Below are positions 1 to 18,800 of a DNA stretch of 64,000 bases, piece by piece (the stretch's first letter is position 1; each line of letters starts with the position of its first letter). The position numbers and the translations under genes are program-made. Under the pieces are notes generated by a model. It saw only the letters and a program-made list of their open reading frames with translations, searched no databases and was not told where the DNA came from. Origin of the DNA: Chlorella sorokiniana (Eukaryota; Chlorophyta; Trebouxiophyceae; Chlorellales; Chlorellaceae); contig CP084613.1 of assembly GCA_025917655.1 (NCBI GenBank), positions 2,110,001-2,174,000 on the forward strand, written 5' to 3'.

Positions 1-1149
1 ACCCTCATCGGCGACGCGTACCTGCAGCCCAACCCTGACAATCTGATCAAGCTCACCGATGTGCTCTACATGCCCGACGCCGCCGACAACCTCCTGTCCG
101 TCAACCGAGCTACCCAGAAGGGCATCAGCTTCTCCTTCGACCGCACCGGCTGCCAGATCTCCATGGGCAACCACATGATTGCCTACGGCTACACCGACGC
201 CACCAGCAACACCTACCACCTGGCCAGCCGCTGCCTCGAGCCAGGCTCCGCCGCCTACGCCCTCACCATCGCCTACGCTGCACGCGCCGACACACCCAAC
301 CTGTGGCACCGCCGCCTCGGCCACCTCGGCTACGACAACCTGGCCAAGCTCACCACCATGGCCACCGGCATCAGCATCGACCCCTCCGACTTCAAAGCCA
401 CCAGCGCAGACACCTGCGACGCCTGCACCCTGGGCAAGCAACATCGCCAACCGTTCAACGCCTCCACCTCCTTCACCCACAAGCCTCTGGAGCTGCTGCA
501 CACCGACCTCTGCGGTCCCATGCCAGTCCCCTCCCACGGTGGCAGCCTGTACTTCATGACCATCCTGGATGACTACACTGGCTACATGTCCAAGCCCACC
601 ACCTCCCACTTGACTGCAGCCAAGCATGTGCTGCGCTACCTCGCTGGTACCCCTGACTACGGCATCATCTTCAGCCCGTCCAACGCTACCCTCGACGCCT
701 ACTGCGACGCCAACCATGCTGGCGACATCGACACCCGCCGCTCCACCACCGGCTACGTCTTCACCTTCAAGAACGGCGCCATCACCTGGAGCTCACGCCT
801 GCAACCAACCGTCGCCGCATCTACTACAGAAGCTGAGTACATGGCAGCCGCCTCCGCCGTCAAGGAAGCACTGTGGCTGCGCAAGCTCTTCGCTGACCTG
901 GACCTGCACATCGCCTGCATCGACATCAAGTCAGACAGCCAATCAGCCATTCACATGCTGAAGAATCCAGTCATCTCCCTTCGCTCCAAGCACATCGACA
1001 TCATCCACCACTTTGCACGCGAGCGCGTCATCCGTGGCGAAGTCAACTTCAGCTACATCCCCACCGATGCCATGGTTGCTGACATCCTGACCAAGCCCGT
1101 GCCCACCAACAAGTTCAAGTACTGCCGCGCAGCTATGGGCATCGCCTGA
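1..1149 (+). mobile_element. Ty1/copia retrotransposon remnant (copia-2), pol region
   Basis: The plus strand encodes parts of a copia polyprotein. The integrase N-terminal HHCC zinc-binding region is visible (LWHRRLGHLGYDNL, then CDACTLGKQH), as is the start of the integrase core (LLHTDLCGPM). The C-terminal RNase H region follows (YCDANHAGDIDTRRSTTGYV). The copy is broken and incomplete, and its left part lies outside the window. The RNase H part is clearly related to that of the copia-1 element on the other strand. A purine-rich stretch ending at 1178 and an LTR-like start at 1179 follow the stop codon at 1147-1149, as expected at the 3' end of such an element. Confidence 0.92.
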
Positions 1150-1178
1150 GTGCAGCGGCTGTGCAGCCTGCGTGGGAG

Positions 1179-1532
1179 TGTTGAGATGTGGCTGAGCCAC
1201 ATGTCCAGCCTGCACACCCGCAGCACATCTCCCCAGCTGCCACGTGGCAGGCGCTGCTGACGTGGACACCCTTTCGTCATGCATGAGCCCAACTTAGCTA
1301 ATATGCTCAGACACCCTTCGATTATGCTTTCCCACTTTATTCTAAGTTGATTGACCCCAATGCCATGCATTTCTGTGCACCTGAGCCCCGCCGTCATGCC
1401 ACTACCACAAACACTACCCCGCATATGCCGGAATAATGCCAATAGTAGCATTGTGCTGCTCCAGCCTATTTAGCGCCATTCTGCGCCCTCTTTCATACTC
1501 TTGCGCTCTTTGTAACTACCTCCATCCAATAC
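1179..1532 (+). repeat. LTR of copia-2, incomplete
   Basis: The segment begins TGTTGAG directly after a polypurine-like tract and follows the pol end, so it is read as the 3' LTR. Positions about 1333-1532 match a diverged second copy at 14127-14321. It runs into an unrelated inverted LINE segment at about 1533, so its far end is missing here. Confidence 0.65.
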
Positions 1533-2012: not shown

Positions 2013-2527
2013 TGTTGAGATGAAGGCGCTCAAGTAGGGCTGGAGGTTACAAGAGGAGGCTGCCCATGAGAAAAGCTGAAAGAAAAGGATGGAATGGTTC
2101 CGAATGGGGCGAGAGGCCTATTAAGTAGGCCGCCAGGTAGAAAGTCAAAGCATGCACAGCACTATTTGGTGAGCCCCTAGTGAGCCCCTACACAGGGATT
2201 AGGTAAGCCTCTGGTGAGCCCCTACACCAGGATTAGGTGAGCTTTGGAAGCTTCTGGAAGGAAGGCTGTAGAAGCTTCGAGAAGGTTCGAGAAGCTTCTA
2301 GAAGCGGATGCACAGAAGTGTGTAGAAGCTTCCGGAAGGATCTGGAAGTTTCTGGAAGCTTGTAAAGGAACGCACGGGGAAGCTTCTAGAATGTTCCAGA
2401 AGGATCGCTGGATGGAAGGCAGGCAAGTAGCGGACTAAACAATCTCTCGTAACGCCTGCCAGCTGGCGGCTTTGGCAGATGTGCGGCGGGTGTGCAGACT
2501 GGACACGTGGCACCGCCACACTTAACA
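2013..2527 (-). repeat. copia-1 LTR, 3' copy in element orientation
   Basis: This 515-bp repeat matches 11638-12117 plus 12452-12487. In plus orientation it starts TGTTGAGATG and ends CTTAACA. The element side (2528 on) begins CTCCCCACGCAGG, the complement of a polypurine tract. Reading along the minus strand, it holds a heat-shock-element array, then a short palindrome containing CTTAATAG (2116-2132) where a TATA box would be expected, then the R/U5 part. Confidence 0.93.
2247..2401. promoter_or_regulatory. Heat-shock-element array in copia-1 LTR (left copy)
   Basis: Alternating GAA and TTC half-sites are spaced exactly 5 bp apart. 2271-2303 holds seven perfect units in phase. 2379-2401 holds five perfect units. 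2247-2259, 2325-2337 and 2345-2357 hold three each. This matches the binding consensus of trimeric heat shock factor (alternating nGAAn). The array lies upstream of the presumed LTR transcription start in element orientation. Heat-induced transcription is an inference. Confidence 0.85.
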
Positions 2528-2557
2528 CTCCCCACGCAGGCTGTACAGCCGCTGCAC

Positions 2558-4371
2558 TCAGGTGATGCCCATAGCCGTGCGGCAGTACTCGAACTTGGTG
2601 CTGGGCACGGGCTTGGTCAGGATGTCAGCAATCATGGCGTCTGTGGGAATGTAGTTGAAGTTGACTTCACCACGGGTGGCGCGCTCGCGGGCAAAGTGGT
2701 GAATGACGTCGATGTGCTTGGAGCGGAGCGAGACGACTGGATTCTTCAGCATGTGGATGGCCGATTGGCTGTCTGACTTGATGTCGATGCAGGTGATGTG
2801 CAGGTCCAGATCATAGAAGAGCTTGCGTAGCCACAGTGCTTCCTTGACGGCGGAGGCGGCTGCCATGTACTCGGCTTCAGTTGTCGAGGCTGCAACTGTT
2901 GGCTGGAGTCGGCTTGACCAGCTGATAGCTCCACCGCTGAGGGTGAAAACATAGCCGGTGGTTGAGCGACGTGTGTCCAAGTCGCCTGCGTAGTCTGCAT
3001 CGCAGTATGCTTCCAGTCTGAAGTCCGACTGTCCAAAGGTGAGCGCATAGTTTGCTGTTCCTGAGATGTAGCGCAAAACTCCTTTGGCTGCTTTCCAATG
3101 CGCTGTTGTCGGATTCGCCATGTGTCTAGCCAGTGCTCCCACGGCTTGAGAGATGTCTGGTCTGGTGCAGACCGATAGATACATGAGGCTCCCAATCAGC
3201 TGACTGTAGCCGTATGTGCTGGTGTCCAATGCTTCGCCGGTCTTGGTCAGCTTGGTCGCTGTGCTGAGCGGCACAGTCTGGGTCTTGCATTCCTTCATGT
3301 TGTGCTTCTCCAGCAGATCACTGATGAGTCTGCTCTGCGCCAGACTGATGGTGCGTTTGTCTCTGTCTCTGTGAATGTCCATTCCAAGAAAACAGGTTGC
3401 CTCTCCCATGTCTCGTGCTTCAAACGCCGAGAGTATCTTGGCTTTTGCTTCGTTCACTGAGCTGAGGTCTCGTGCGATGATCAGGATGTCATCCACGTAG
3501 GTGAGCAGATAGACAGGGTCTTCTGCCTTCTTGATGAAGAGAGCTGGATCGGCCGCTGATGAGATGTAGTTTTGGGCCTCCAGTTCTTCCTTCAGCTTGG
3601 TATGCCAGGCTCTTGGAGCTTGCTTCAGTCCATAAAGTGACTTGTGTAGGTGGCATGCCGTACTGGAATCGCCGTTGCTGTAGCCGGGTGGCTGCTCGAT
3701 CCATACATCCTCATCAAGCTCTCCATTCAAGAATGCGGTCTTGATGTCGAGCTGGTGAATCTCCAGGTCTTCGGATGCTGCTAGCGCCAGTAGTGTGCGC
3801 AGGGTGGTGTACTTGCTAACAGGTGCAAAGACTTCATCGTAGTCTATGCCCTCCTTCTGGCGAAATCCCTTGGCCACTAGGCGTGCCTTGTAGCGCTCGA
3901 TGTTGCCCGATGCATCTCTCTTGAGCTTGAACACCCACTTGACCGGAATGGGTGTGATACCGGTTGGTATCTTCTCCAGAGTCCAGGTGTTGTTTGCCAG
4001 CAGAGATTCCATCTCTTCATCAGCTGCTTGCTGCCAGAGCTCTGCTTGCTCTGATTCCAGTGCTTCTTCTAGGTCGGCCGGCTCCTTGATGATGGCTGCG
4101 TGTGCTGCAGCTAGGTTTCGCTTTCGTCCGGTGATTTGGTAGCCTTCTTCCCTCCATACTGATGCTGGGACGTCTGTTCCTGACCGTTTCGGCCGCTTCC
4201 CAGGTGCTGGTGGTGTACGCCGGTTGCTGTCATCTGTCTGTGTTGGCTCGGTCTCCATGGGCTGATCGTCAGACTGATCTTCTCCCACGGAATCTTGGTT
4301 TTCTTCATCATCTGAAGTGACAGCATCTGCTTCGGGCTCGCGATTGATGGTCCTGTTGTTCTCCATGAACG
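2558..4371 (-). mobile_element. copia-1 pol: reverse transcriptase and RNase H
   Basis: On the minus strand this part of the copia polyprotein shows the copia RT entry block (YKARLVAKGF, DYDEVFAPVS), the RT motif IHQLDIKTAFLNGEL, the catalytic YVDDILI, and the RNase H region (EAYCDADYAGDLDTRR, WLRKLF, SKHID). It ends at the stop codon just inside the left LTR. The upstream part of the polyprotein is separated from it by LINE-B. Confidence 0.93.
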
Positions 4372-5132
4372 ACCCTGTGGCGCCCACTTGGGACCCCGCC
4401 AAAGCGGAGGAGTGGCAAGCCCTCCTGCAGTCTGACGCTGTTCAGGCACGCTTGGCCGAGGTCGTTAGCGCCGCGGCCACTGTGTCTGACAGCGAGGGCC
4501 TGCAAGGCGTCATTGCAAACCTGCGCTCGGTCGTGGGTCAGTCGTTGGCGGAGGTGATGCCGCAGGATGAACGCTCCACTCGGGGCCAGGGGCCGCCGCC
4601 GCGCCAGCCGTGTAGAGGTTCGCCGTCAGGTTAACAGGGCACGCCGCGAGGTGCAGCGCCAACTGCGCTCCGCGGGCCCTGAGTCTCACGCCTATCGTCA
4701 GGCAGCCAAGGAGTACCGTCGCCTTGCTGCCCGCATGAAGCGTGAGCTGCGGCGAACAAAAGGGGCTTTGGCTGTCAAGCTTGCCAATGCGGACATGGCA
4801 GCTTTCTGGCGGAAAGTTTGGAGGCCGTTGGGCCGCATGGGTCACCCGACCACACCTGCCATTACGCCTCGCCAGTGGTACGACTACTTCAAGGGGTTGT
4901 TGGCACAACCCCTTGCCCCTTTGCCTTCCCATGAGAGCTCTGGCCACACTCAACCCTTACCCGCAAACAACCCACCCACCCATTCGCAACCGAATGAGGT
5001 CAGCACTGCGCCCCAGTCCTTTGATGGGCCCTTCACCGCAGCTGAGGTGCGAGCTGCCGTTCCCCGCCTCAAACGGCGAGCCGCCGTGACAGGCTTTGAG
5101 CAGGTTGACATCCTGAAGGGGGATGTGACGCA

Positions 5133-5942
5133 TTGGCTCCAGCCATAGCAGCTGTCTTCAATGCCTGCCGTCGCCTTGGCACCATGTCGGTCCTTGCTGT
5201 GAGTGCTATCACTCCCATACTCAAGGCCGGTGATCCGTTGGAGCCTGGCAACTACAGGGGCATTGCAGTTGGCACGTTGCTGGCAAAGCTGTATGCCGTC
5301 TTGGTGAACAAGAGGGTCACGAGCTGGGCGGAGGGGGCAGGCCTGAGAGCTGCAGGCCAAGCAGGGTTCCGGAAGGACCACCGGACCGCTGACCAGATTT
5401 TCGTGTTGCGCACGCTGATTGAATCCGCTCGGGCACGGGGTGCTCCCTTGTTCACTTGCTTTGTGGATTTCAAGAAAGCGTACGACTTGGTGGATAGGAG
5501 GTTGCTCTGGGACAAGCTTGCGCGCCGTGGGATGCCCACGGCGTTGCTTGATGCGGTGAAGGCATTGTACGGGGATGTGCCCATGTGTGTCCGCACGCAC
5601 GAGGGCCTCACTCCTTTGTTCCAATCCTCCATTGGCGTCAAGCAAGGGTGCCCGCTGAGCCCCACTTTGTTTGGCTTGTTTCTAGACGACCTTGAGCAGT
5701 GGGTGGTGGGTGCAGACGGGGTTGGGCTGCCCACCCTGCGTGGTCACAGGGTCCCACCGTTGTTGTATGCTGACGACTTGCTGCTCGTGTCCGTGACGGC
5801 AGCAGGGCTCCAAGCACAGCTGGGGGTGCTGGAGCGGTACTGTGAGCGTTGGGGCCTGACCGTTAATGTTGAGAAGACCAAGGTGGTGGTCTTCCCCGCC
5901 TCTTCTCGCGTGGCGGCAAGGCCAGCACCACGCCTCACGTAC
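5133..5942 (+). pseudogene. LINE-B reverse transcriptase core
   Basis: One open frame carries all the RT blocks in order. They are NYRGIAVGTLLAKLY, QAGFRKDHRTADQIF, the motif-A block FVDFKKAYDLVDR, the motif-B block KQGCPLSPTLF, the catalytic LLYADDLLL, and motif D NVEKTKVVVF. The catalytic aspartates are present. Upstream and downstream coding lies in other frames, so the complete ORF2 product would not be made from this copy. Family placement within the L1-like or related LINE clades would need a phylogeny. Confidence 0.88.
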
Positions 5943-7419
5943 CGGGGAGCGGCTGGCCACCGCCCTCCTTTAGGTACCTTGGGGTGGAGGTACATCAGCT
6001 ACACGCGTTTGGGCCCTTTGCCTGCGCAGAGTTGGGCAGGGCGGGCCTACGGGCCTTGCACGCCATGCGGCGCAAGCTCTCACACATTGGCACGTCTGAC
6101 TTTGGGTTGCAAAGGCGGCTTTTCCAGGCTTTGGTGCTGCCTGTGGTGTCGTACGGCTGCGAGGTGTGGGCGCCGCAGTTCTTGCGAGGGGGTGGGGAGA
6201 ATGCTTCCGAGCGGCTCTTGCGCTCATTTTTGCGGCACGCGATGGGGCGCCTGCCGCAAAGCACCCCCGCTCCTGTGGTGTTGGCCGAGGCAGGGTTTTA
6301 CCCCCTTGCCACTCACTGGGGCAAGCTGGTGACCCGTTTCTGGAACAGGCTGGTGGGCCTCCCAGATACGCGCGTCACCAAGTGGGCGCTCTTTGAGCAG
6401 TGAGACCTTTTGCGGGCGCACGGTGGGGCGGGTGGGGTGGCCCGCCAGCCGTGGGGGACCCAGGTTGTAGGTTACCTTCGCAGCCTGGGGTTGGGTCCCC
6501 TTGATGGTGGGGAGCCCTGCCAGGTCGATGTTGGCGAGGCGTGCAGCCTCGCTGACGAGGCCTACGTCGAGGGCGTCCTGCAGGGAGCACCATCCCAGCC
6601 CAAAGTGCAGTTTTACTGCGCTAGTGTGAGGGGGGCTCACGCGTGATACCTACTGCCGTCGCCCGCAACCGTACCTGACCGAGGTTGACAGCCGTGTGCG
6701 CATGGCCAGCCTGGCCAGGCTCCGCACGGGCTGTCATTGGTTGCGGGTGGAGACTGGGCGGCGTGAGGGGTTGGACAGGCCCAGCCGGATTTGCCCCCAC
6801 TGCTCGATGGGTGTTGTGGAGGACGAGCATCACATGGTGTTTGACTGCTCGAAGTATGCCCGCCTGCGAGCCGATTACAGCGAGTCCCTTTTTGGGGTCG
6901 GTCAGGGTCCGCCCAGCGGTCCGTTGGCGGGGCAGGGAACCTTGGCACAGTTCCTTGCGCAGGATCCGGTGGCGGTGGCTAGCTTTGTGCACCGCTGCTA
7001 CCGTCTGTCGTTAGCTGGAGACGGCACCCACAGCAACGATTCTGCCCCAGCCCCACCGCGAGGCGGCCCCGGCTTGAGTGGGCCCACGTCGCCGTTCTCG
7101 CGGCCCCTACCAGCCCGTGCCCGGCTTGCGTTGGATTCTTCCTTGCCTTTTCTGACTCTTTCACAGTTTTTCCTTGCTCTGCATCCTTGTCATCATGCTT
7201 TGCGTGCATGCTTGCTTGCCATCCCGTGTGCTTGCTGCGTCTTGCATCTTCACCTCGGCGCGATGGGGGTGCGCGGGCCCGGGCTTTGACTCCCGTGCGC
7301 TGCTGGCCTGATGAGTTCCCGGTTTCGAGGGCCAGCCCGTTCCTGTCTGCTGCCTTCGGCTGCAGCAGGGGTGGGCCCATTTGCGTCTGAGTTGCATGGG
7401 CCCTATGCCCCGTCCGCGA

Positions 7420-7436
7420 GGGACAGTGATTGTCCC
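7420..7436 (+). other. Stem-loop near the LINE-B 3' end
   Basis: GGGACA-GTGAT-TGTCCC forms a perfect 6-bp stem with a 5-nt loop, about 40 nt before the end of the element. The same hairpin recurs in the other 3' ends of this family (LINE-E, LINE-D, the 14031 unit; one base differs in the LINE-A tail). In several LINE families a 3' stem-loop followed by short repeats is what the element's RT recognises. That role is inferred here. Confidence 0.6.
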
Positions 7437-7478
7437 GAAGGCAGACGTTAAACACGTGTAACATAACATAACATAACG

Positions 7479-7629
7479 TCACATCACGACTGATGATGAT
7501 GCGCCCGTCGTCCAGGAGAATCTTGTAGCCTTTGGTGCCAGGTGGATAGCCGATGAATCTGCCAGGCTCGCTTGTGCGGTCCAGCTTGTTCGAAGCTGCT
7601 TTGGAGTGACGGCATAGGCCCGTGCTCCA
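7479..7629 (-). mobile_element. copia-1 pol segment between LINE-B and LINE-C
   Basis: The minus strand reads the conserved copia block downstream of integrase (SEPGRFIGYPPGTKGYKI, then DDGRIIISRDV). It fits between the integrase part (from 9569 on) and the RT part (up to 4371), which confirms that LINE-B and LINE-C are two separate insertions in one copia element. Positions 7608-7629 are one copy of the LINE-C target duplication. Confidence 0.9.
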
Positions 7630-9512
7630 CTGCTGCCGCACGGTGATTGTGCGGCAGCAGCGGATCCGCCCCTTGATGGGCTGACCCATGCATTCTTGCT
7701 CTGCCCCGCCGTGGCCGCTGCTGCCGAGTGGGTCTGTCGTGTCTTTGCGGCTGTCTCGGGTGTGCGCCCTCCTCCCCTCTGTCCCCGTGTCTTTCTTGCA
7801 GATGAGCATGCCACTTGGGCCCCACCCGCCCGTCTTCGCCACGTATGGGCACACCTGCGTTTGCGTTTGCGTCTGAGTTGCATGGGCCCTATGCCCCGTC
7901 CGCGAGGGACAGTGATTGTCCCGAAGGCAGACGTTAAACACGTGTAACATAACCTGCGCACCGCTTACCTCTACGCTGTGTGGCAGATGCGCGGCCGGCG
8001 AACTCTTGCGGGCCAGCCCATCTCGCCGGCCAGCGTGTGCGGTGCCACGGTAGCAGCGGTGCTGGCTGCCATCAAGCGGGACTGGGCGCGGGCCACGCAC
8101 AACATGCGCCGGCTGGATGGGACCTATGCTGAGTGGTTCCGTGGCCGCGACACCTCCCTCCGTATGGGCCAGTTCAAAGCGCGGTGGACCCACAGGGGCG
8201 CGCTTTGTGTTGTGGAGGCGGGTGCTATGCGGTTGCGCTTCAGCCTGTCCCACCCGGTGGCCGCACCAGTGGAGGGCCCTTCTGCGTCTCGGGTGCCTGC
8301 AATTGCCCCTGCGTCCTGCCTTGGTCCCTTGCCCCCTCCACGCCTGCAGCTCTCCCTTGCCTCCGCTCGCCCTGGTGGAGCCTCACCTGCGGCTCTCCCT
8401 CCTGCGGGGCCGCTGCTGAGTATGGAGCGTGAAGGCGGGGCAGCCCCTTCAAGCGGCGGGGCAGCAATGGCACGGGCTGCACCACGCGCGGGCGTCGGTT
8501 AACTCTCCGCCCTGCCCTTTTCTGGCTGGGGCCCTCCTCTTCTTTGCGGGGCGCTTTCCCACGGCCTCAGCGGCCTTCTTGTTATTTTTATACTCGACCG
8601 TGCTGCTTCCACTCCCTTTTGGGCCATGCGATACAGCCTGACTTCTGTTCATCTTTACATGCGCGCTGCTGGGGCTCCTTCCATTCTTGCAGGCGGCGGC
8701 AGTTGGGCGGCCGGCAGCGGCAGCGGCGATGGCGGCAAGTGCGTGTGTAGTGGCGCGGCGGGTGATGGGCGTTCGCCACCGTGTGTGGCAACGTGCCGGC
8801 GGGGGTCCGCCGCCCCCCGCCCGGCTTGCCTTGCGGCACCCGCGCCGCCCGGTCCTAGCGGGCCGGCAGGCACACCTGCGGAGCGCGTACATGCCCTTGC
8901 TGTCGGTAGTCGTGTGCCCGCCAGCCCTCGGCTTGCCCCGTCCTTGCTCTTTGCATCCATTGGCTGTCGGTTCCCCAGCGCTCGGCTCCTGCGTTGGCTT
9001 GTCCCTGTTCCCATGGCTCCCTCCAGCACGCTTCCACACTCGATTTCCTCGCCCCTTTCTGAGTGGCTTGCACCTTCCCTTTCCATGGCTCCCCTCCTTT
9101 TCTTAGCCTGCCCCCTCCTGGACGCCCCCTTCTCCCTGTCCCAGTGCGCCCCCTTTTTTTTTTGTCTTGGCCTGGTTGCCTTTGCGTCTCTTCCGTGGTG
9201 GGTTGCTCCATCCTCGCCTCGGGTCTTTCAGTTCTTTGCCTTGCCCTGTTGTGCCGCTGCCTGCCCCAGTCTGGCGGTTGCCGGGATCTCGCGTTTCATC
9301 TGCTTTCACAGCGACATACCGAACACACATACACACACAAAACAAAAGAAAAAAAAAAAATCTGCGTACCACCCCCCGTGACTGCATGCCCCATCTTGCT
9401 GTCACATGCGCGTTCGCGCTGCTGTTTGGCTGCCTCATCGGTCATGATGCTTCGTGGCTTCGGCCTACCTACGCTTCTTGAGATCCCCCACGTCTCAAGT
9501 GTAAGAGCACCC

Positions 9513-9546
<34 letters not shown>
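7630..9546 (+). mobile_element. LINE-C, poly(A)-tailed Zepp-like LINE, 5'-truncated
   Basis: The element ends in an A-run at 9514-9546 and is bounded by a perfect 22-bp target duplication (7608-7629 and 9547-9568). The start encodes the C-terminal part of an L1-like ORF2: HAFLLCPAVAAAAEWV (about 7690), then after a small insertion LRTAYLYAVWQMRGRR (from 7956) and the end of the frame near 8500. The remaining kilobase is 3' UTR with A-rich stretches. Poly(A) tail and long target duplication are typical of L1/Zepp-type elements. The first 31 bases fold into a hairpin. Zepp kinship is inferred from these features. Confidence 0.85.
7860..7951 (+). mobile_element. LINE-E: 92-bp LINE-B-family 3' end inserted in LINE-C
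   Basis: The segment is the 3'-terminal unit of the ACATA-tailed family (compare 7380-7474), inserted into the LINE-C ORF2 region. The host sequence ACCTGCG is present on both sides (7853-7859 and 7952-7958), a 7-bp target duplication. A second TTTGCG hexamer sits at its 5' end. The related uninterrupted sequence at 15541 confirms the empty site. Confidence 0.85.
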
Positions 9547-9548
<2 letters not shown>

Positions 9549-9568
9549 CGGCATAGGCCCGTGCTCCA

Positions 9569-10530
9569 AAGGTGCGTAAATGAGCGACGTTTGGTTTCGT
9601 GCCAAAGAGAAGCTCGTAAGGTGTCTTGCTGCGATCGCTGACTGGTGATCTGTTCCGCACGTAGTTGGCCGTCGCCAAAGCCTCTGCCCACAGGTACTTG
9701 GGCATTGCTGTCGCTGCCAGCATGGGTCGCACTTTGTCCATCAGGGTGCGATTTAGCCGTTCTGCTGCGCCGTTCTGCTCCGGTGTGTATCGCACAGTGG
9801 TCTCCATCTTGATACCTCTGTCGCTGCAGAAGTCCTGCAGGTCTTGATTGATGAACTCTGACCCGTTGTCGCTGCGTAGACGCTGGACTGTCTGTCCGGT
9901 CTGATTCTCAAGGAGGTTGATGACGTCCTTGACTGCCCTAGTCGTATCCTTCTTGTGTGGGATGGGCTGCACCACCGAGAACTTGGAGTAGTCGTCCAGA
10001 ATGGTGAGGAAGTAGTTGTTGCCGCCGATGGAGGTGATCGGTAGTGGTCCACACAGGTCCGTGTGTAGAAGAGCCAGTGGTCGCGTTGCTGCGCCAGTTG
10101 ATCTCTTGAAGGATGTCCGGTGCTGCTTTCCCAGCACGCAGGGCTCACAGATGTCTGCCCCTGCTGCTTTGAACTCATCCGGGCTGATGTTCATGCCCCT
10201 GACCAGACTTGGTAGCTGCGCCAGTCTGTCATAGCCCAGGTGTCCGAAGCGCTCATGCCAGAGCTGAGCTGTCTCCCGTTGTCGAGCAATCATCGCCGGC
10301 TGTGTTGTGTGGCTCTCGTGCATGCAGTGCCCGTTCAGGTAGTAGATGGCGTCTCCGGTTGATGGAGCGACTGCCAGTGTGTTGCCGTTGTGGCTGATCT
10401 CGCATCGGTCGTTGCTGAACGTGAAGTCCACTCCTCGCTTGGTAGCGTGTCGCACAGAGATGAGGTGCTCCGACGCCTCAGGAATCAGAAGTACGTCGCT
10501 GAGATGGACCGTAGAGTCGCTGGTCTGCAT
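9569..10530 (-). mobile_element. copia-1 integrase region
   Basis: The minus strand encodes the integrase HHCC region (LWHERFGHLGYDRL, CEPCVLGKQHRTSF), the DDE core (LLHTDLCGPL, SDNGSEFIN, and TPEQNGAAERLNRT with the third acidic residue) and the GKR-like region (YELLFGTKPNVAHLRTF). 9547-9568 is the right copy of the LINE-C target duplication. Confidence 0.92.
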
Positions 10531-10548
10531 TAAGACCTCTCCTTCGGC

Positions 10549-11520
10549 TCAAGCCTTGCCGGTGCTGCCGTTTCCGAAGGTGATGACGATTTCTTCGTGC
10601 AGTGGTCGCTGGTTGACCAGAATGTCCGGGTCGTAGGTCATGTGCCGGGATGCGCCGGTGTCCAGGACCCATCGCATGGGCTCCTTGTTGTAGACAGCTG
10701 AGCGGGCGGTCAGAGCGATCCCGCCAAACTGGTTTGGCTGCTGTGCTCCGGGCCGGAAGCCGTTGTGTTGCCGCCCTACCTGCTCGTCGTGCTGTCGCTT
10801 GCGGCATTCTCGCTTGTAATGCCCTTTCTTGCCGCAGTAGAAGCATGTCCGCTCTTCTTGCTGCTGCGGTCTGCCGTGATTGGTGTTGCGGTCCCTGTTG
10901 CCGCTGCTGAAGCTGTGCTTCCTGTTGAACCTGCCGTTCTTCTTGGCAAATAGCGCTGCTGCGCTGCTGCGCTCCGGCTGTGTGGTCTGCTGCTCCACTG
11001 TCAGAAGCTTAGGCAGCATATCGTCGATGCTGAGATCCCGGTCGCTGCTTGTAAGCACCGTGCTGATCATGCCATAAGCCGGTGGAAGACCCGCCAGAAA
11101 CTGTAAAGCGACTTCCAAGTCCTTTACTTCATCGCCAGCTGCTCGTAGCTGGGTCTGGATCTCCTTGGCCCGTGCTGCATAGACTGTTAGCGGCTCTGTC
11201 GGGCTGAGCTTGAGCTGAGTGAGCTCCCGTCGCAAGATGAGCTTGCGAGCGTTGGTCTTGGCCTCATACGTGGTCTTCAGTGTCTCCCACGCACTCTTGG
11301 CTGTTGCGCACTGTCCCACCGTTGTCAGGTGATGATCCTTCACGTGCAAGATGATCTGCGCCAGTGCCCTCTGGTCCCGATCTGAGGAGACGGTGTCCTC
11401 CGAGATCGCACTCCAAAGTCCCTTGGAGATGAGCAGCGCACGCATGCGAATGCTCCATGTGGCGTAGTTGTCCACGTCCAGGCGTTCGACGGTGAGCTTG
11501 TCCTCCGCTGCCGTCGCCAT
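10549..11520 (-). mobile_element. copia-1 gag and protease region
   Basis: The minus strand encodes a gag polyprotein of the UBN2/copia type (starting MATAAEDKLTVERL), a CCHC zinc knuckle (CFYCGKKGHYKREC) and the aspartic protease active site (WVLDTGASRHM). It begins about 120 bp inside the right LTR, the usual arrangement. The stretch 11521-11637 between LTR and gag is the leader. A primer-binding-like TGGTTATGGGCCCC lies on the minus strand next to the LTR, but I cannot match it to a tRNA with confidence. Confidence 0.92.
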
Positions 11521-11872
11521 GATGTACCGCCTGCTTCAGAGGGATGACGAGATGTCCAAAGCGTGTGTGTAGGTGCGCCAAGCAGAGGTGAAGGATGTGA
11601 GCGCCTTAATTCAAGCGTAGTTGGGGCCCATAACCAATGTTGAGATGAAGGCGCTCAAGTAGGGCTGGAGGTTACAAGAGGAGGCTGCCCATGAGAAAAG
11701 CTGAAAGAAAAGGATGGAATGGTTCCGAATGGGGGCGAGAGGCCTATTAAGTAGGCCGCCAGGTAGAAAGTCAAAGCATGCACAGCACTATTTGGTGAGC
11801 CCCTAGTGAGCCCCTACACAGGGATTAGGTAAGCCTCTGGTGAGCCCCTACACCAGGATTAGGTGAGCTTTG

Positions 11873-12027
11873 GAAGCTTCTGGAAGGAAGGCTGTAGAAG
11901 CTTCGAGAAGGTTCGAGAAGCTTCTAGAAGCGGATGCACAGAAGTGTGTAGAAGCTTCCGGAAGGATCTGGAAGTTTCTGGAAGCTTGTAAAGGAACGCA
12001 CGGGGAAGCTTCTAGAATGTTCCAGAA
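11873..12027. promoter_or_regulatory. Heat-shock-element array in copia-1 LTR (promoter copy)
   Basis: This is the same array as in the left LTR, here in the LTR that would drive the element. Seven in-phase GAA/TTC units lie at 11897-11929 and five at 12005-12027. The array sits upstream of the presumed start of transcription on the minus strand. Confidence 0.85.
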
Positions 12028-12117
12028 GGATCGCTGGATGGAAGGCAGGCAAGTAGCGGACTAAACAATCTCTCGTAACGCCTGCCAGCTGGCGGCTTTG
12101 GCAGATGTGCGGCGGGT

Positions 12118-12444
12118 TATGTTATGTTATGTTACACGTGTTTAACGTCTGCCTTCGGGACAATCACTGTCCCTCGCGGACGGGGCATAGGGCCCATGCA
12201 ACTCAGACGCAAATGGGCCCACCCCTGCTGCAGCCGAAGGCAGCAGACAGGAACGGGCTGGCCCTCGAAACCGGGAACTCATCAGGCCAGCAGCGCACGG
12301 GAGTCAAAGCCCGGGCCCGCGCACCCCATCGCGCCGAGGTGAAGATGCAAGACGCAGCAAGCACACGGGATGGCAAGCAAGCATGCACGCAAAGCATGAT
12401 GACAAGGATGCAGAGCAAGGAAAAACTGTGAAAGAGTCAGAAAA
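12118..12444 (-). mobile_element. LINE-D: 327-bp antisense LINE-B-family 3' fragment in the LTR
   Basis: It is the reverse complement of about 7148-7474 of LINE-B and begins with TATGTTATG, the complement of the ACATA tail. The LTR sequence GGCGGGT is duplicated at both edges (12111-12117 and 12445-12451), a 7-bp target duplication. The uninterrupted site is visible in the left LTR at about 2485. Confidence 0.92.
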
Positions 12445-12487
12445 GGCGGGTGTGCAGACTGGACACGTGGCACCGCCACACTTAACA

Positions 12488-14030
12488 TACCGGGGGAGCG
12501 GCTGGCCACCGCCCCCTCCTTTAGGTACCTTGGGGTGGGGGTACATCAGCTACACGCGTTTGGGCCCTTTGCCTGCGCAGAGTTGGGCAGGGCTGGCCTT
12601 CGGGCCTTGCACGCCATGCGGCGCAAGCTCTCACACATTGGCACGTCTGACTTTGGGTTGCAAAGGCGGCTTTTCCAGGCTTTGGTGCTGCCTGTGGTGT
12701 CGTACGGCTGCGAGGTGTGGGCGCCGCAGTCCTTGCGAGGGGGTGGGGAGAATGCTTCCGAGCGGCTCTTGCGCTCGTTCTTGCGGCACGCGATGGGGCG
12801 CCTGCTGCAAAGCACCCCCGCTCCTGTGGTGTTGGCCGAGGCAGGGTTTTACCCCTTGCCACTCACTGGGGCAAGCTGGTGACCCGTTTCTGGAACAGGC
12901 TGGTGGGCCTCCCAGATACGCGCGTCACCAAGTGGGCGCTCTTTGAGCAGTGAGACCTTTTGCGGGCGCACGGTGGGGCGGGTGGGGTGGCCCGCCAGCC
13001 GTGGGGGACCCAGGTTGTAGGATACCTTCGCAGCCTGGGGTTGGGCCCCCTTGATGGTGGGGAGCCCTGCCAGGTCGATGTTGGCGAGGCTCGCAGCCTC
13101 GCTGACGAGGCCTACGTCGAGGGCGTCCTGCAGGGAGCACCATCCCAGCCCAAAGTGCAGTATTACTGCGCTAGTGTGAGGGGGGCTCACGCGTGATACG
13201 TACCGCCGTCGCCCGCAACCGTACCTGACCGAGGTTGACAGCCGAGTGCGCATGGCCAGCCTGGCCAGGTTCCGCACGGGCTGTCATTGGTTGCGGGTGG
13301 AGACTGGGCGGCGTGAGGGGTTGGACAGGCCCAGCCGGATTCGCCCCCACTGCTCGTTGGGTGCTGTGGAGGACGAGCATCACATGGTGTTTGACTGCCC
13401 AAAGTATGCCCGCCTGCGGGCCGATTACGGTGAGTCCCTTTTGGGGTCGGTCAGGGTCCGCCCAACGGATCCGTTGGCGGGGCAGGGAACCTTGGCACAG
13501 TTCCTTGCGCAGGATCCGGTGGCGGTGGCTAGCTTTGTGCACCGCTGCTACCGTCTGTCGTTGGCTGGAGACGACACCCACAGCAGCAATTCTGAGCCCC
13601 AGCCCCACCGCGAGGCGACCCCGGCTTGAGTGGGCCTGCGTCGCCGTTCTCGCGGCCCCTGCCAGCCCGTGCCCGGCTTGCGTTGGATTCTTCCTTGCCT
13701 TTTCTGACTCTTTCACAGTTTTGCCTTGCTCTGCATCCTTGTCATCATGCTTTGCGTGCATGCTTGCTTGCCATCCCGTGTGCTTGCTGCATCTTGCATC
13801 TTCACCTCGGCGCGATGGGGGCGCGCGGGCCCGGGCTTTGACTCCCGTGCGCTGCTGGCCTGATGAGTTCCCGGTTTCGAGGGCAAGCCCGTTCCTGTCT
13901 GCTGCCTCCGGCTGCAGCAGGGGTGGGCCCATTTGCGTCTGAGTTGCATGGGCCCTATGCCCCGTCTGCGAGGAACAGTGATTGTCCCGAAGGCAGACGT
14001 TAAACACGTGTAACATAACATAACATAACA
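12488..14030 (+). mobile_element. LINE-A, right piece
   Basis: It resumes the LINE sequence cut at 2012 and is nearly identical to LINE-B from 5938 on. It encodes the RT thumb region (RRLFQALVLPVVSYGCEVW) and the C-terminal zinc-knuckle part (13246-13629, EDEHHMVFDCPKYARL). The first residue of the knuckle reads R-P-H-C rather than C-P-H-C. The coding frame changes, so this copy is broken. A 3' UTR and an ACATA tail follow to 14030. Confidence 0.92.
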
Positions 14031-14126: not shown

Positions 14127-14321
14127 CTTAGTTGATTGATCCCTACGCCATGCTTTTCTCTGCACCCGCGCCCTCGGCGTTATTCTGGCCATGCTAATAT
14201 CCAGATCAATACCCGCATATGCCGGATTACTCCCAATAGCATCACTGTGCCCCAGCCCCATTTAGCGCCATTCTGCGCACTCTTGCATACTCTTGCACTA
14301 TTTTGTAACTGCCTCCATCCA
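14127..14321 (+). repeat. Diverged LTR copy, copia-2 family, left piece
   Basis: It matches about 1333-1532 with many substitutions, sharing blocks such as CCCGCATATGCCGGA and ATTTAGCGCCATTCTGCGC. It is interrupted by the solo LTR at 14322. The sequence after that LTR (from 14777, to perhaps 14903, which ends CCCAACA) is likely the rest of the same old LTR. Confidence 0.6.
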
Positions 14322-14487
14322 TGTTGAAGTGGGTTCCTGCGAACCCTCTGTTCAGCCTGCCGACCTGCATGTGCCCTTGTTGTCACCATCTGTCCTTGCT
14401 TGTCTGCGTCTGTCCTTGTTTGTCCCGGTCTGTCTCTAGACCTTCTAAAAGCTTCTCGACCCGACTTCTCCAGAACCTTTTAGACCA

Positions 14488-14554
14488 TTCCAGAACATTC
14501 CACAAGCTTCCGCGCGCTTTCCGCTGCATGCTTCCAGAAACTTCCAGAGACTTC
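14488..14554 (+). promoter_or_regulatory. Heat-shock elements in the solo LTR
   Basis: TTC-CA-GAA-CA-TTC lies at 14488-14500, three perfect in-phase units. 14532-14554 holds five in-phase units with one mismatch (TTC, GAA, TTC, GAG, TTC). Weaker sites continue to about 14637. They lie about 120-190 bp upstream of the TATA box. Confidence 0.8.
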
Positions 14555-14673
14555 TACACACTTCCGTGCATCCGTTTCCAGATGCTTCTCGATCCTTATG
14601 GAACTTTCAAAAGCCTTCCGTCCAGAAGCTTCCAGATTCATGCTGTGCATGCTGTGACTTTCCAGCTCGTGGC

Positions 14674-14685
14674 CTATATAAGAGG
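14674..14685 (+). promoter_or_regulatory. TATA box of the solo LTR
   Basis: CTATATAAGAGG lies in the solo LTR at the position aligned to CTTAATAG in the copia-1 LTR. Heat-shock elements upstream and this TATA box form a compact inducible-promoter layout. Confidence 0.7.
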
Positions 14686-14838
14686 CCTGTCGCCCTCGAT
14701 GGCAACTTTTCCATCCTTTTATTTTCAGCTGTCTTGCCCACCGGGCTGTTGCTCGTCGTGTAACTTCAACAATCCAACACCGGGCGTACTGAGTACGGCA
14801 AGGCAGCCCTGCGCAGCATACGCACGGCGTGTCCCACC

Positions 14839-15874: not shown

Positions 15875-18800
15875 TCACTCCAATATCACAATGATTTGGT
15901 CAGCAGCCACCACCGAACCTGCTCGGGCTTCCACGCTCTTCACCACACCATCCACATCAGCACGCAGCACATTACGCATCTTCATTGCCTCGACCACGGC
16001 TACCTGCATATATGCCTTTGCGTCGCGTTCAATGAAAAGGAGCTACACCCAGCTGATGTTGCTGCCACTGTCAACAGGCATTGTGAACAGTGCGTTATGG
16101 TTGTCTTCCTCACCTCATCCCCAGGCGTCAAGCGCTGGCCTGGCTGCGCATCCACACTTATCAGGGTGCCAGGCATGGGCGACATAATGGTCTGCGCTTA
16201 GGATTCATGAATCGGCGGACGCTTAACATCTATTCTTTGTTTGTAAATGCTTGTATATATAGTTGCTGCAGAGCTCACTAGAGAGGAGCCCTAACCACAC
16301 CGCAACAACATCCCTTGCACATGATGCAATGCAGATTGCTGCAAGCCCAACAACACCCCACCTTGCTCAAGTCCTCCGTGCGAGGCAGCGGCATGTGGTG
16401 CCCTAGGCTGACCAACAGCGGACTCTCTACTCGTACCACTCTTTGTGCGCCACAGTGTTGCAGCTTGTACTGACGGCCAGCCACCTCTAGAACTTGCAAA
16501 CACACTTCCTGCCCATCCACCTCTGCTTGCACCAATTGCGCATCACCGTGGCCCATCTTCTGTACGTAAAGAATCCGATGTGGCAACTGCACCTCCATTG
16601 CCTGCACGCCGCCATCTCGGCAGTTTTTTTGCACCATGCTCGTCTTTGCCGGGCGAACTGTAGCCGGCACTTGCTGATTGCTCACTGACAGGACCAAGGG
16701 GGTCTCAACCTGCACAAAAGGTAAGCGTAGGGCAGACAGCAGCATCAAGCAGCATTGCAGGATGGCCAAGCAGTTGGCGAAGCAATTAGGTTGCATGATG
16801 CCCTCCTTGCCGGCTCTGACCCGAGGGTCCCTAGCAGGCGGCACCTGAAGGCCAGGACCACTGGCTAGCTGCTGTTCCTTGTCCAGCCACAGCATAGCTG
16901 CAAGGGCCAGCATTTGGTCCTCCTGCTGCTGTGTGAGGGGCAGCCGGCTCGGTGCGCTGTCCTCTCGACTGGGGTAATGCTCGGCCAGAAAGGCAGTGCT
17001 GAGGTTGCCTGCCACAAACGCCGGCACGTCCAGTACCGAGCGCAGCAGCGGAGTGTTGTGACGAACCCCACGGATGACATAGGAGTCCAGGGCACGGCGC
17101 ATGGCAGACAACGCGGTGTTGCGGTCGTGGCTGTGTGTGATCAGCTTTGATATCTGCAAGGGGGCGATATCAACAATCCGGAGGCACGCTTCACCAACAA
17201 CAAGAACAGGGGATGATAACTCGCCAGCTGCCCCCTACGGCTCACACTACCCCGACAACCGCACGGCCACCACAGCTCCACACCATGGGATCGTAGTTCA
17301 TGCTGATTTCACTGCCCTCTTGCACGCCGCTATCACAGCGCACAGCAGGGCCACGTGGGCTCGATAATGTCGAAGGCGGCCAATGGAGGGCAGGAAGCCT
17401 GCATATAAGATGGCATGCGGGCCAACCGGAAGGGTCACCATGAAACTTGCCATCTTGATCGCATCTAAGGAGCAGTTTGCAGCCTTCTCAACAGACGATT
17501 TCAAGACAGTCACGCCCGTGAGCGCACCTCTGGCTGGATCCTCTGCATACACCCGGCACTCCATGGCCCAGCCCGAGTGCAACAAGTCGTCTTGTGCTAG
17601 TGCCAACGGCTGGCCAGCTGCCACGCGCATCATTTGCTCCACCAAATCCACGCCTGTGACCGCCTCAGTGATGGGGTGCTCCACCTGGGGTTGGAGTTGG
17701 GGGTGGCAAGGGGTTTGATTTGAAAGGTCAAGGATGGGTGAAGGGGGTCCAGTTTAAATGGCGCATCCTACTGATTATGCACACATCTGGTCCAGGCAGA
17801 TGCCGGCCCGATCGCAGGGCAAGCCAGCGCGCACTGAAGCGCTATGGTGGCAAGGCAGAGCATAACCATAGCCTGCTGCAGGCCAAAGGCGGAATGAACA
17901 CCACCTCCACCTGCAAGCGAGTGTTCATCTCAAGGAAGTAGAAGGATCGCTGCCTATCAACCAGAAATTCCACCGTCCCTGCACTGTGGTATCCAACGGC
18001 CTACATGACAAAAAACAAGGACAGGGAAAGAACGCCGAATGCTGAGAGGCAGCCATGCGAGCCGGCCACATACTGGGCTTACAGCCAAGCAATACTCACG
18101 CACTCGACACAGAGCCACAGCTTGCTCGCCCATGGCCCGCCGCATCTCGGGGTGACCAGCGGTGAGGGCGCCTCTTCTATGACCTGCAGCCATTCAGATG
18201 ATGCCGAACAGATGGCGTGGCGCCAAACAGGCACTGCCAGCTGCTCCCACGCAGCCACCTTACCAGCTGACCATCATTGGCCTGCAAGCACTTCACTTCA
18301 CTTGTCACATACAAACCCCAATTGCTGCCAGCTGCCTTGATCCACCTTTTGGTTGCGGCGCTGTATGGAGCACTCGCGCTCTGGGAAGTACACTACATTC
18401 CCGTGCTTGTCACCCAGCACCTGGATTTCGATGTGCCGTGGCTGCTCGATGAACTGCACAGAAGGGTGTTTGGATGTGTGTGTGTTTGTTTACTGTGTTT
18501 GTTGAACAATGTAGGTGTGCTTGAGGGGGTGACAGCAGGCGCGTCACCCAAGGCTGGTAACACCCATATGGGGTTTTGGACTGTCCGACCACCCCGAAAC
18601 ACCTGCCCACCTTTTCAATGAGCATGCGCTGATCGCCAAATGCTGCTGCTGCCTCCTGCAGCAATGTAAGATTAAGGGGACCACACGTCAGGCATGTGCA
18701 CACGCATAAACACAACTTTGATTGCCTACTTGGCTGCAAAGTTCATAGCTCTCCCGAAGCTCTCCCTCGGTCCACGCCACACGCATGCCCTGCATCTCCA

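Follow-up and report, generated by a model that had tools for sequence, protein, structure and literature searches.

Dense heat shock element arrays in the long terminal repeats of a copia retrotransposon suggest an ONSEN-like promoter

A copia retrotransposon, here called element B, occupies positions 2013–12487 of the window, by which we mean the whole stretch of 64,000 nucleotides analysed (contig CP084613.1, positions 2,110,001 to 2,174,000). Each of its two long terminal repeats (LTRs) carries 21 exact heat shock element (HSE) units, arranged in five groups within 155 bp. The best reading of these arrays is that the LTR would act as an ONSEN-like promoter driven by heat shock factor (HSF), yet is not ONSEN itself, and we give a probability of roughly 0.72 to the proposal that HSF controls the U3 promoter in a heat-responsive manner through a composite HSE. 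Element B is flanked on both sides by the target site duplication (TSD) TACCG and lies on the minus strand, a correction to an earlier note on this DNA.

HSE arrays in element B and in a solo LTR

The whole window was scanned for HSE runs, defined as alternating GAA/TTC units in exact 5-bp phase. In the 3' LTR of B such runs are found at 2247–2259 (3 units), 2271–2303 (7), 2325–2337 (3), 2345–2357 (3) and 2379–2401 (5). These are the coordinates of the earlier note, which had described groups of seven and five units and three shorter ones in a 515-bp LTR; its term "perfectly phased" holds inside each group, but not between groups. There are 12 runs of at least three units in the window, ten of them in the two LTRs of B and two (at 14488 and 14532) in a solo LTR, and all 12 are thus confined to the LTRs of one copia family. 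The features concerned are as follows.

2247–2401, minus strand: HSE cluster of the 3' LTR of B, at LTR sense positions 127–281 (run scan)
11873–12027, minus strand: HSE cluster of the 5' LTR of B, with the identical five runs (run scan)
14322–14771, plus strand: solo LTR of the same family, 450 bp, TGTT...AACA, with TSD ATCCA at 14317–14321 and 14772–14776
14488–14632, plus strand: HSE cluster of the solo LTR, in blocks that start at 14488, 14532, 14576 and 14620, 44 bp apart
14675–14682, plus strand: TATATAAG, the TATA box of the solo LTR, downstream of the HSE blocks
2115–2131, minus strand: core-promoter block GGCCTACTTAATAGGCC (sense) of B, which aligns with the TATA box of the solo LTR
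2047–2051, minus strand: TGTAA (sense), a possible poly(A) signal

The observed number of arrays was reached in none of 3000 dinucleotide shuffles of B's LTR. When Markov models (orders 2 and 3) were trained on this LTR, a five-unit run appeared in 1 of 2000 sequences each and a seven-unit run in 0 of 2000 each, and models trained on the whole window (orders 2 and 5) each produced 5 three-unit runs per 20 x 64 kb, and none longer. An order-5 model trained on the LTR recreates the runs, with at least five units in 981 of 2000 sequences and seven in 224 of 2000; such a model largely copies the repeat itself, and its success indicates that the array is internally repetitive. Autocorrelation has peaks at 10, 44 and 54. 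This repetition is the basis of one alternative reading, in which slippage produced a minisatellite of 10 bp/44 bp that resembles HSEs fortuitously and is used by no factor. The autocorrelation peaks, the result of the order-5 model, the period-10 arrays reported by Tandem Repeats Finder (TRF) and the recurrent spacer dinucleotides all agree with such an origin, which we nevertheless regard as quite improbable in view of the other LTRs described below.

The presence of the same runs in both LTRs of B was offered in the earlier note as an array that had been kept. The runs are indeed the same, but this is not evidence of conservation and carries no weight, since transposition makes the two LTRs identical and they are therefore not independent. 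Across the 480-bp part compared they differ by one 1-base indel, and the remaining 43-bp end is identical; B is thus a young insertion. We considered the identity of the LTRs as a sign of conservation and rejected it, as sameness is expected of a young element.

The solo LTR is evidence independent of the two LTRs of B. It is identical to B's LTR in 316 of 393 aligned columns (80%), and has four HSE blocks, the first two with exact three-unit runs and the other two decayed. Block-by-block alignment places the block starts at LTR positions 167, 211, 255 and 299 in the solo LTR and at 127, 171, 225 and 269 in B. The middle step of B is 10 bp longer than that of the solo LTR, which is one HSE period, and the gap inside the cluster likewise totals 10 bp. 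Each of the ten phased units in the solo LTR has an exact counterpart in B; conversely, 13 of the 21 units of B are exact in the solo LTR, five have one mismatch and three fall in gaps. Each block of the cluster has therefore kept its place in a family member that has diverged from B, and this argues against the minisatellite. The solo LTR (14317–14776 with its TSDs) points rightwards to an open reading frame (ORF) on the minus strand at 16278–17159, and transcripts driven by the LTR could run antisense to this ORF.

The arrays are where a promoter would need them, as the earlier note had proposed: in B the HSE cluster lies in U3, upstream of the core-promoter block. This block is common to both LTRs and is downstream of the HSEs in each, as GGCCTACTTAATAGGCC in B and GGCCTATATAAGAGGCC in the solo LTR. 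From the last half-site to the start of the TATA box there are 43 bp in the solo LTR, compared to 116 bp to the start of the block in B. The longer distance is due to extra sequence in B, which includes a 34-bp repeat at 2164–2242 (2.3 copies, GTGAGCCCCTA units); this stands between the HSE cluster and the core block, and corresponds to a gap in the solo LTR. TGTAA, which we take to be the usual chlorophyte poly(A) signal, precedes the LTR end in both B and the solo LTR.

Distant copia relatives

Relatives of B were sought by protein, and hence blind to HSEs. The query was an alignment of the reverse transcriptase (RT) of B with a deleted relative in the same window:

61–1253, plus strand: deleted relative of B, with a gag_pre-integrase to RNase H fragment at 61–1149 and the first 75 bp of an LTR at 1179–1253

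In the frame of this relative RNase H follows directly on gag_pre-integrase, and no more than 75 bp of the LTR can be recognised; the window scan found no HSE run of at least three units in it. A scan of genome contigs with the two-sequence alignment confirmed 2 of 29 pattern-matched stretches, L001 and L002, where an earlier scan with the RT of B alone had confirmed 0 of 23. Both are copia elements. L001 (PXDM01000133.1) is filed under a Rhodobacteraceae metagenome-assembled genome and L002 under Corallococcus sp. AS-1-6. Over about 357 columns, their RT identity to B is 61% and 43% respectively. The RT tree consists of five sequences.

The ends of L001 and L002 overlap by 121 bp and 77 bp, so that both are circular as assembled. 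Each is a closed circle (L001 1–4526, L002 1–4758) that has one LTR and long open frames, and may be either a collapsed high-copy element or an extrachromosomal circle. RVT_2 was found in genome G001 alone among 385 of its class and in genome G002 alone among 195 of its phylum, which supports the view that L001 and L002 are eukaryotic contamination of bacterial assemblies. The L001 polyprotein was also compared with 398 genomes of the phylum of G001; 42 matched, including G001, and the other 41 were set aside as weak (best E 7.8e-9), nearly all of them matching in the integrase-core region.

Both LTRs contain HSE arrays. That of L001 has three GAA-TTC-GAA runs at 84, 114 and 140, followed by TATATA at 255 and TGTAA at 295, and that of L002 has six of them at 74–166, spaced 16 bp apart, followed by TATATA at 244, and is without TGTAA. 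These numbers of runs were reached in 0 of 3000 shuffles for each LTR, and at least one run in 15 of 3000 and 33 of 3000. If the chance of one run per LTR is about 1% (14 to 33 of 3000), then runs in two of four LTR-bearing relatives are expected about 6 times in 10,000, counting L001, L002, L006/L007 and L008 (the last three described below) as four independent relatives.

The arrays differ in construction. On the sense strand the runs of L001 and L002 start and end with GAA, and those of B with TTC, so the polarity is opposite; the repeat units are 10/44 bp in B, 26–30 bp in L001 and 16 bp in L002. Outside the arrays, the LTR of B showed no clear homology to that of either relative when local alignment scores were compared with the largest of 60 shuffles (B–L001 38 versus 31, in the array only; solo LTR–L001 24 versus 34; B–L002 28 versus 30; L001–L002 59 versus 34, in the arrays). 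The array alignments of L001 with L002 and of B with L001 do exceed their shuffles, so that the arrays of L001 and L002, or those of B and L001, may go back to a common ancestor. The arrays have apparently arisen more than once. For the minisatellite reading this is a further difficulty: L001 and L002 show the same motif grammar with other units, just upstream of TATATA, and slippage has no reason to pick nGAAn units three times.

A different alternative is that some other protein binds the palindromic GAAGCTTC/GAATATTC repeats, or that these have a structural function during the life cycle of the retroelement, such as in recombination or integration. The units are palindromic, and a position in U3 does not by itself name the factor. 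However, in four LTRs GAA and TTC alternate strictly at 5-bp steps, with spacers of varied sequence, which fits the HSF rule and, to our knowledge, that of no other factor. We consider this alternative very improbable.

Further copia records were fetched from plasmid collections, where four records match the RT of B. The L002 polyprotein recovers the same four together with two Gordonia records, which were set aside because the match is an IS481 transposase. Two of the four, L006 (NZ_CP115454.1, Kitasatospora cathayae) and L007 (NZ_CP115302.1, Streptomyces camelliae), are filed as Streptomycetaceae plasmids and are 99.4% identical over 4649 bp; L006 encodes a copia-type polyprotein (rve, RVT_2), and the pair are probably eukaryotic, perhaps plant, contamination. 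L008 is the Protofrankia datiscae 'plasmid' pFSYMDG02 (NC_015657.1), which is circular, 5448 bp long and unannotated, and has a Ty1/copia-like gag-pol with RVT_2 and a weak TYA match just under the cut-off. L009 is a fragment in an Alicyclobacillus record. No relative was found in viral contigs by three protein scans and one DNA-pattern scan, and phage records gave no match to the RT of B or to the L002 polyprotein.

Anatomy of element B

The earlier note's identification of B as copia is borne out by the domains Retrotran_gag_2, rve and RVT_2. The element has what is expected of Ty1/copia, namely gag, integrase before RT, LTRs, a 5-bp TSD, a primer binding site and a polypurine tract.

2013–2527, minus strand: 3' LTR, 515 bp, TGTT...AACA
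11638–12487, minus strand: 5' LTR, with a foreign fragment inside at about 12118–12444
2008–2012, no strand: left TSD, TACCG
12488–12492, no strand: right TSD, TACCG
11623–11637, minus strand: primer binding site TTGGTTATGGGCCCC (sense), half-tRNA-Met type, directly after the 5' LTR
2528–2535, minus strand: polypurine tract GTGGGGAG (sense), just before the 3' LTR
10549–11520, minus strand: gag ORF, Retrotran_gag_2 and zinc knuckle (ORF and domain match)
9469–10530, minus strand: integrase ORF, gag_pre-integrs and rve (ORF and domain match)
2558–4402, minus strand: RT/RNase H ORF, RVT_2 (ORF and domain match)

The primer binding site TTGGTTATGGGCCCC is presumably complementary to the tRNA-Met anticodon loop. 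The fragment inside the 5' LTR matches the 3' end of a repeat resembling a long interspersed nuclear element (LINE). It sits at LTR sense position 43 or so, upstream of the HSEs, and the stretch from the HSEs to the core block is therefore intact. Between the integrase and RT of B there are about 5 kb of other DNA, which include a LINE-type RVT_1 ORF at 5133–6332. The LINE-like repeat is found at 1783–2012, 5715–7477 and 12488–14029, in at least two copies that are about 97% alike: B is inserted in one copy, with TSD TACCG, another copy is inside B, and the fragment in the 5' LTR comes from the end of the repeat. Rfam gave no match anywhere in the window.

Proposed mechanism and comparison with known systems

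We hypothesise that trimers of the host HSF sit next to one another on the phased nGAAn units, and that bound HSF recruits transcription to the core-promoter block roughly 40–120 bp downstream, so that heat or protein-damage stress would lead to full-length retrotransposon RNA. The array may have grown by local tandem duplication at two scales, namely 10-bp GAAnnTTCnn steps and a 44-bp HSE-bearing block, while selection on the element would keep or recreate responsiveness to HSF. Such selection is suggested by the block-wise cluster in the diverged solo LTR, together with the separately built arrays in two distant copia elements. Among copia LTRs of Brassicaceae, the 3P and 4P classes of heat-responsive element (HRE) are reported to go with strong heat induction (PMC5059998). 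The 4P class, defined by at least four adjacent nGAAn units, is described there as the strongest, with up to thousand-fold transcript accumulation (PMC5059998), and the seven- and five-unit exact runs of B are of this kind. HSFA2 is reported to bind the ONSEN HRE, with activation severely reduced in its mutant (PMC3907296). By analogy with this precedent, HSF should bind the arrays of B and drive U3.

Several observations weigh against this proposal. The TATA box of B is degenerate, and the copy may for that reason fall short of full promoter strength. Its gag and integrase are in separate ORFs, with the insertion of about 5 kb before RT, and the copy is therefore not autonomous now. TRF identifies a 10-bp period tandem repeat in the array, and duplicated units are not independent. 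No run of at least three units was found in L006, L007, L008 or L009, whose LTRs are not delimited and of which L009 may hold none; arrays are thus present in two of six relatives fetched from named records (two of five if L006 and L007 are counted once), and dense HSE arrays are not universal in copia. Constraint on the half-sites is also only weakly supported, as the minisatellite reading would have it. With units defined in B, half-sites are identical in 53 of 58 positions and spacers in 22 of 29 (P=0.095), which is a weak test, and with units defined in the solo LTR the figures are 30 of 30 and 8 of 12 (P=0.004), a comparison in which the choice of units favours half-sites. At an assumed 10% change per branch, 0 changes in 30 has a probability of 0.04, and 5 in 58 are as expected. 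The pattern fits constraint on the active lineage with free decay of the solo LTR, and is weak by itself.

A further alternative overlaps with heat-responsive control by HSF. The array may act mainly against silencing at ordinary temperature, with HSF trimers bound without heat keeping the chromatin open and recruiting polymerase, and with heat adding little or a further burst. In Chlamydomonas, HSF1 is described as forming constitutive trimers and as being on the HSP70A promoter at ambient temperature, and HSE1 and HSE4, together with the TATA box, as acting against the silencing of transgenes (PMC6952782). Possible methylation sites are abundant in the LTR of B, one strand of which has 19 CG and 29 CHG, and unlike that of ONSEN this LTR may need such help. 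On the other hand, the known HSE-bearing copia elements are reported to respond to heat (PMC3907296, PMC5059998), and Chlamydomonas-like behaviour of HSF in the host of B is an assumption. We consider a mainly anti-silencing role a serious but less likely alternative, and prefer heat-responsive control. A wider proposition is possible though doubtful: dense HSE arrays would have been put together repeatedly, and from different repeat units, by copia-type elements in algae and in other eukaryotes, and in algae, whose HSF1 can be on DNA without heat, they would serve mainly as portable modules against silencing that keep the LTR open, heat adding a further burst.

The heat-driven copia elements described best are those of Arabidopsis and related species. 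A separate, denser and probably green-algal case, together with arrays of other units in distant relatives, would make the capture of HSF a recurrent evolutionary solution; if true, it would be a general convergent strategy of LTR retrotransposons and not a Brassicaceae speciality. The system would offer a simple unicellular setting in which to study this capture. Given the reported action of Chlamydomonas HSF1 against transgene silencing, B would also let one ask whether mobile elements use HSEs against silencing, beyond the heat response.

The host of B is probably a green alga, the clues being the primer site of half-tRNA-Met type, the TGTAA motif and the HisD of the window, whose closest match in the PDB is 5vlb, a chloroplast histidinol dehydrogenase. 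Osser is an element of Volvox, and B is perhaps Osser-like, the likeness being the apparent primer site type and probably a chlorophyte host. The Osser lineage of Ty1/copia is described as having the 1/2tRNA-Met primer site type that the site of B appears to have, a type also listed for Bryco and part of Gymco-II, whereas for most other copia groups the tRNA-Met 3' end is reported (PMC6317226).

Among the matches listed from the open-licence literature, we recognised no description of HSE arrays in algal LTRs, and met nothing on HSEs in Osser. Outside copia, DIRS-1 of Dictyostelium has a tyrosine recombinase, and in not being copia differs from B. Its inverted terminal repeats have been associated with a heat shock promoter since 1984, according to a title cited in PMC2685390. 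The Cryptococcus elements TCN3 and TCN12, which are reported to move at 37 C, resemble B in carrying putative HSEs in their LTRs, but are fungal and are described with one or two of these in place of a dense array (PMC12810828). Helitrons of Caenorhabditis are mobile and are reported to carry HSF-1 sites, but are DNA transposons (PMC6927752). The Chlamydomonas HSP70A promoter, with several HSEs and a TATA box and bound by HSF1, belongs to a host gene and not to a mobile element (PMC6952782).

The closest systems are ONSEN/ATCOPIA78, TERESTRA, COPIA37 and ROMANIAT5, which are likewise copia elements described as having clustered nGAAn units in the LTR (PMC5059998, PMC3907296), and the likeness in design to ONSEN drawn in the earlier note is sound. 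For membership of the ONSEN/COPIA78 family itself, nucleotide identity above 80% is the criterion cited (PMC5059998). The earlier note's description of the arrays as extreme is fair when the 21 exact units of B in five groups are set against the cluster of four nGAAn units reported for ONSEN and the six of TERESTRA in A. lyrata, although HSE clusters in LTRs are an established phenomenon (PMC5059998). The ONSEN array is described as having grown by duplication of a proto-HRE, with loss in some lineages and decay in solo LTRs also (PMC5059998, PMC3907296). The LTR of ONSEN is reported to have none of the CG and CHG sites in which that of B is rich (PMC3907296), and B is therefore not ONSEN. This difference, and the differing unit, spacing and polarity of the relatives' arrays, support the independent origin that the earlier note had proposed. 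Already known are HSE clusters in copia LTRs (ONSEN and its like) and heat shock promoters in terminal repeats (DIRS-1); what seems to be new, within the literature searched, is the presence of 21 exact units in a case that is probably algal, together with distant copia elements that carry arrays of other units.
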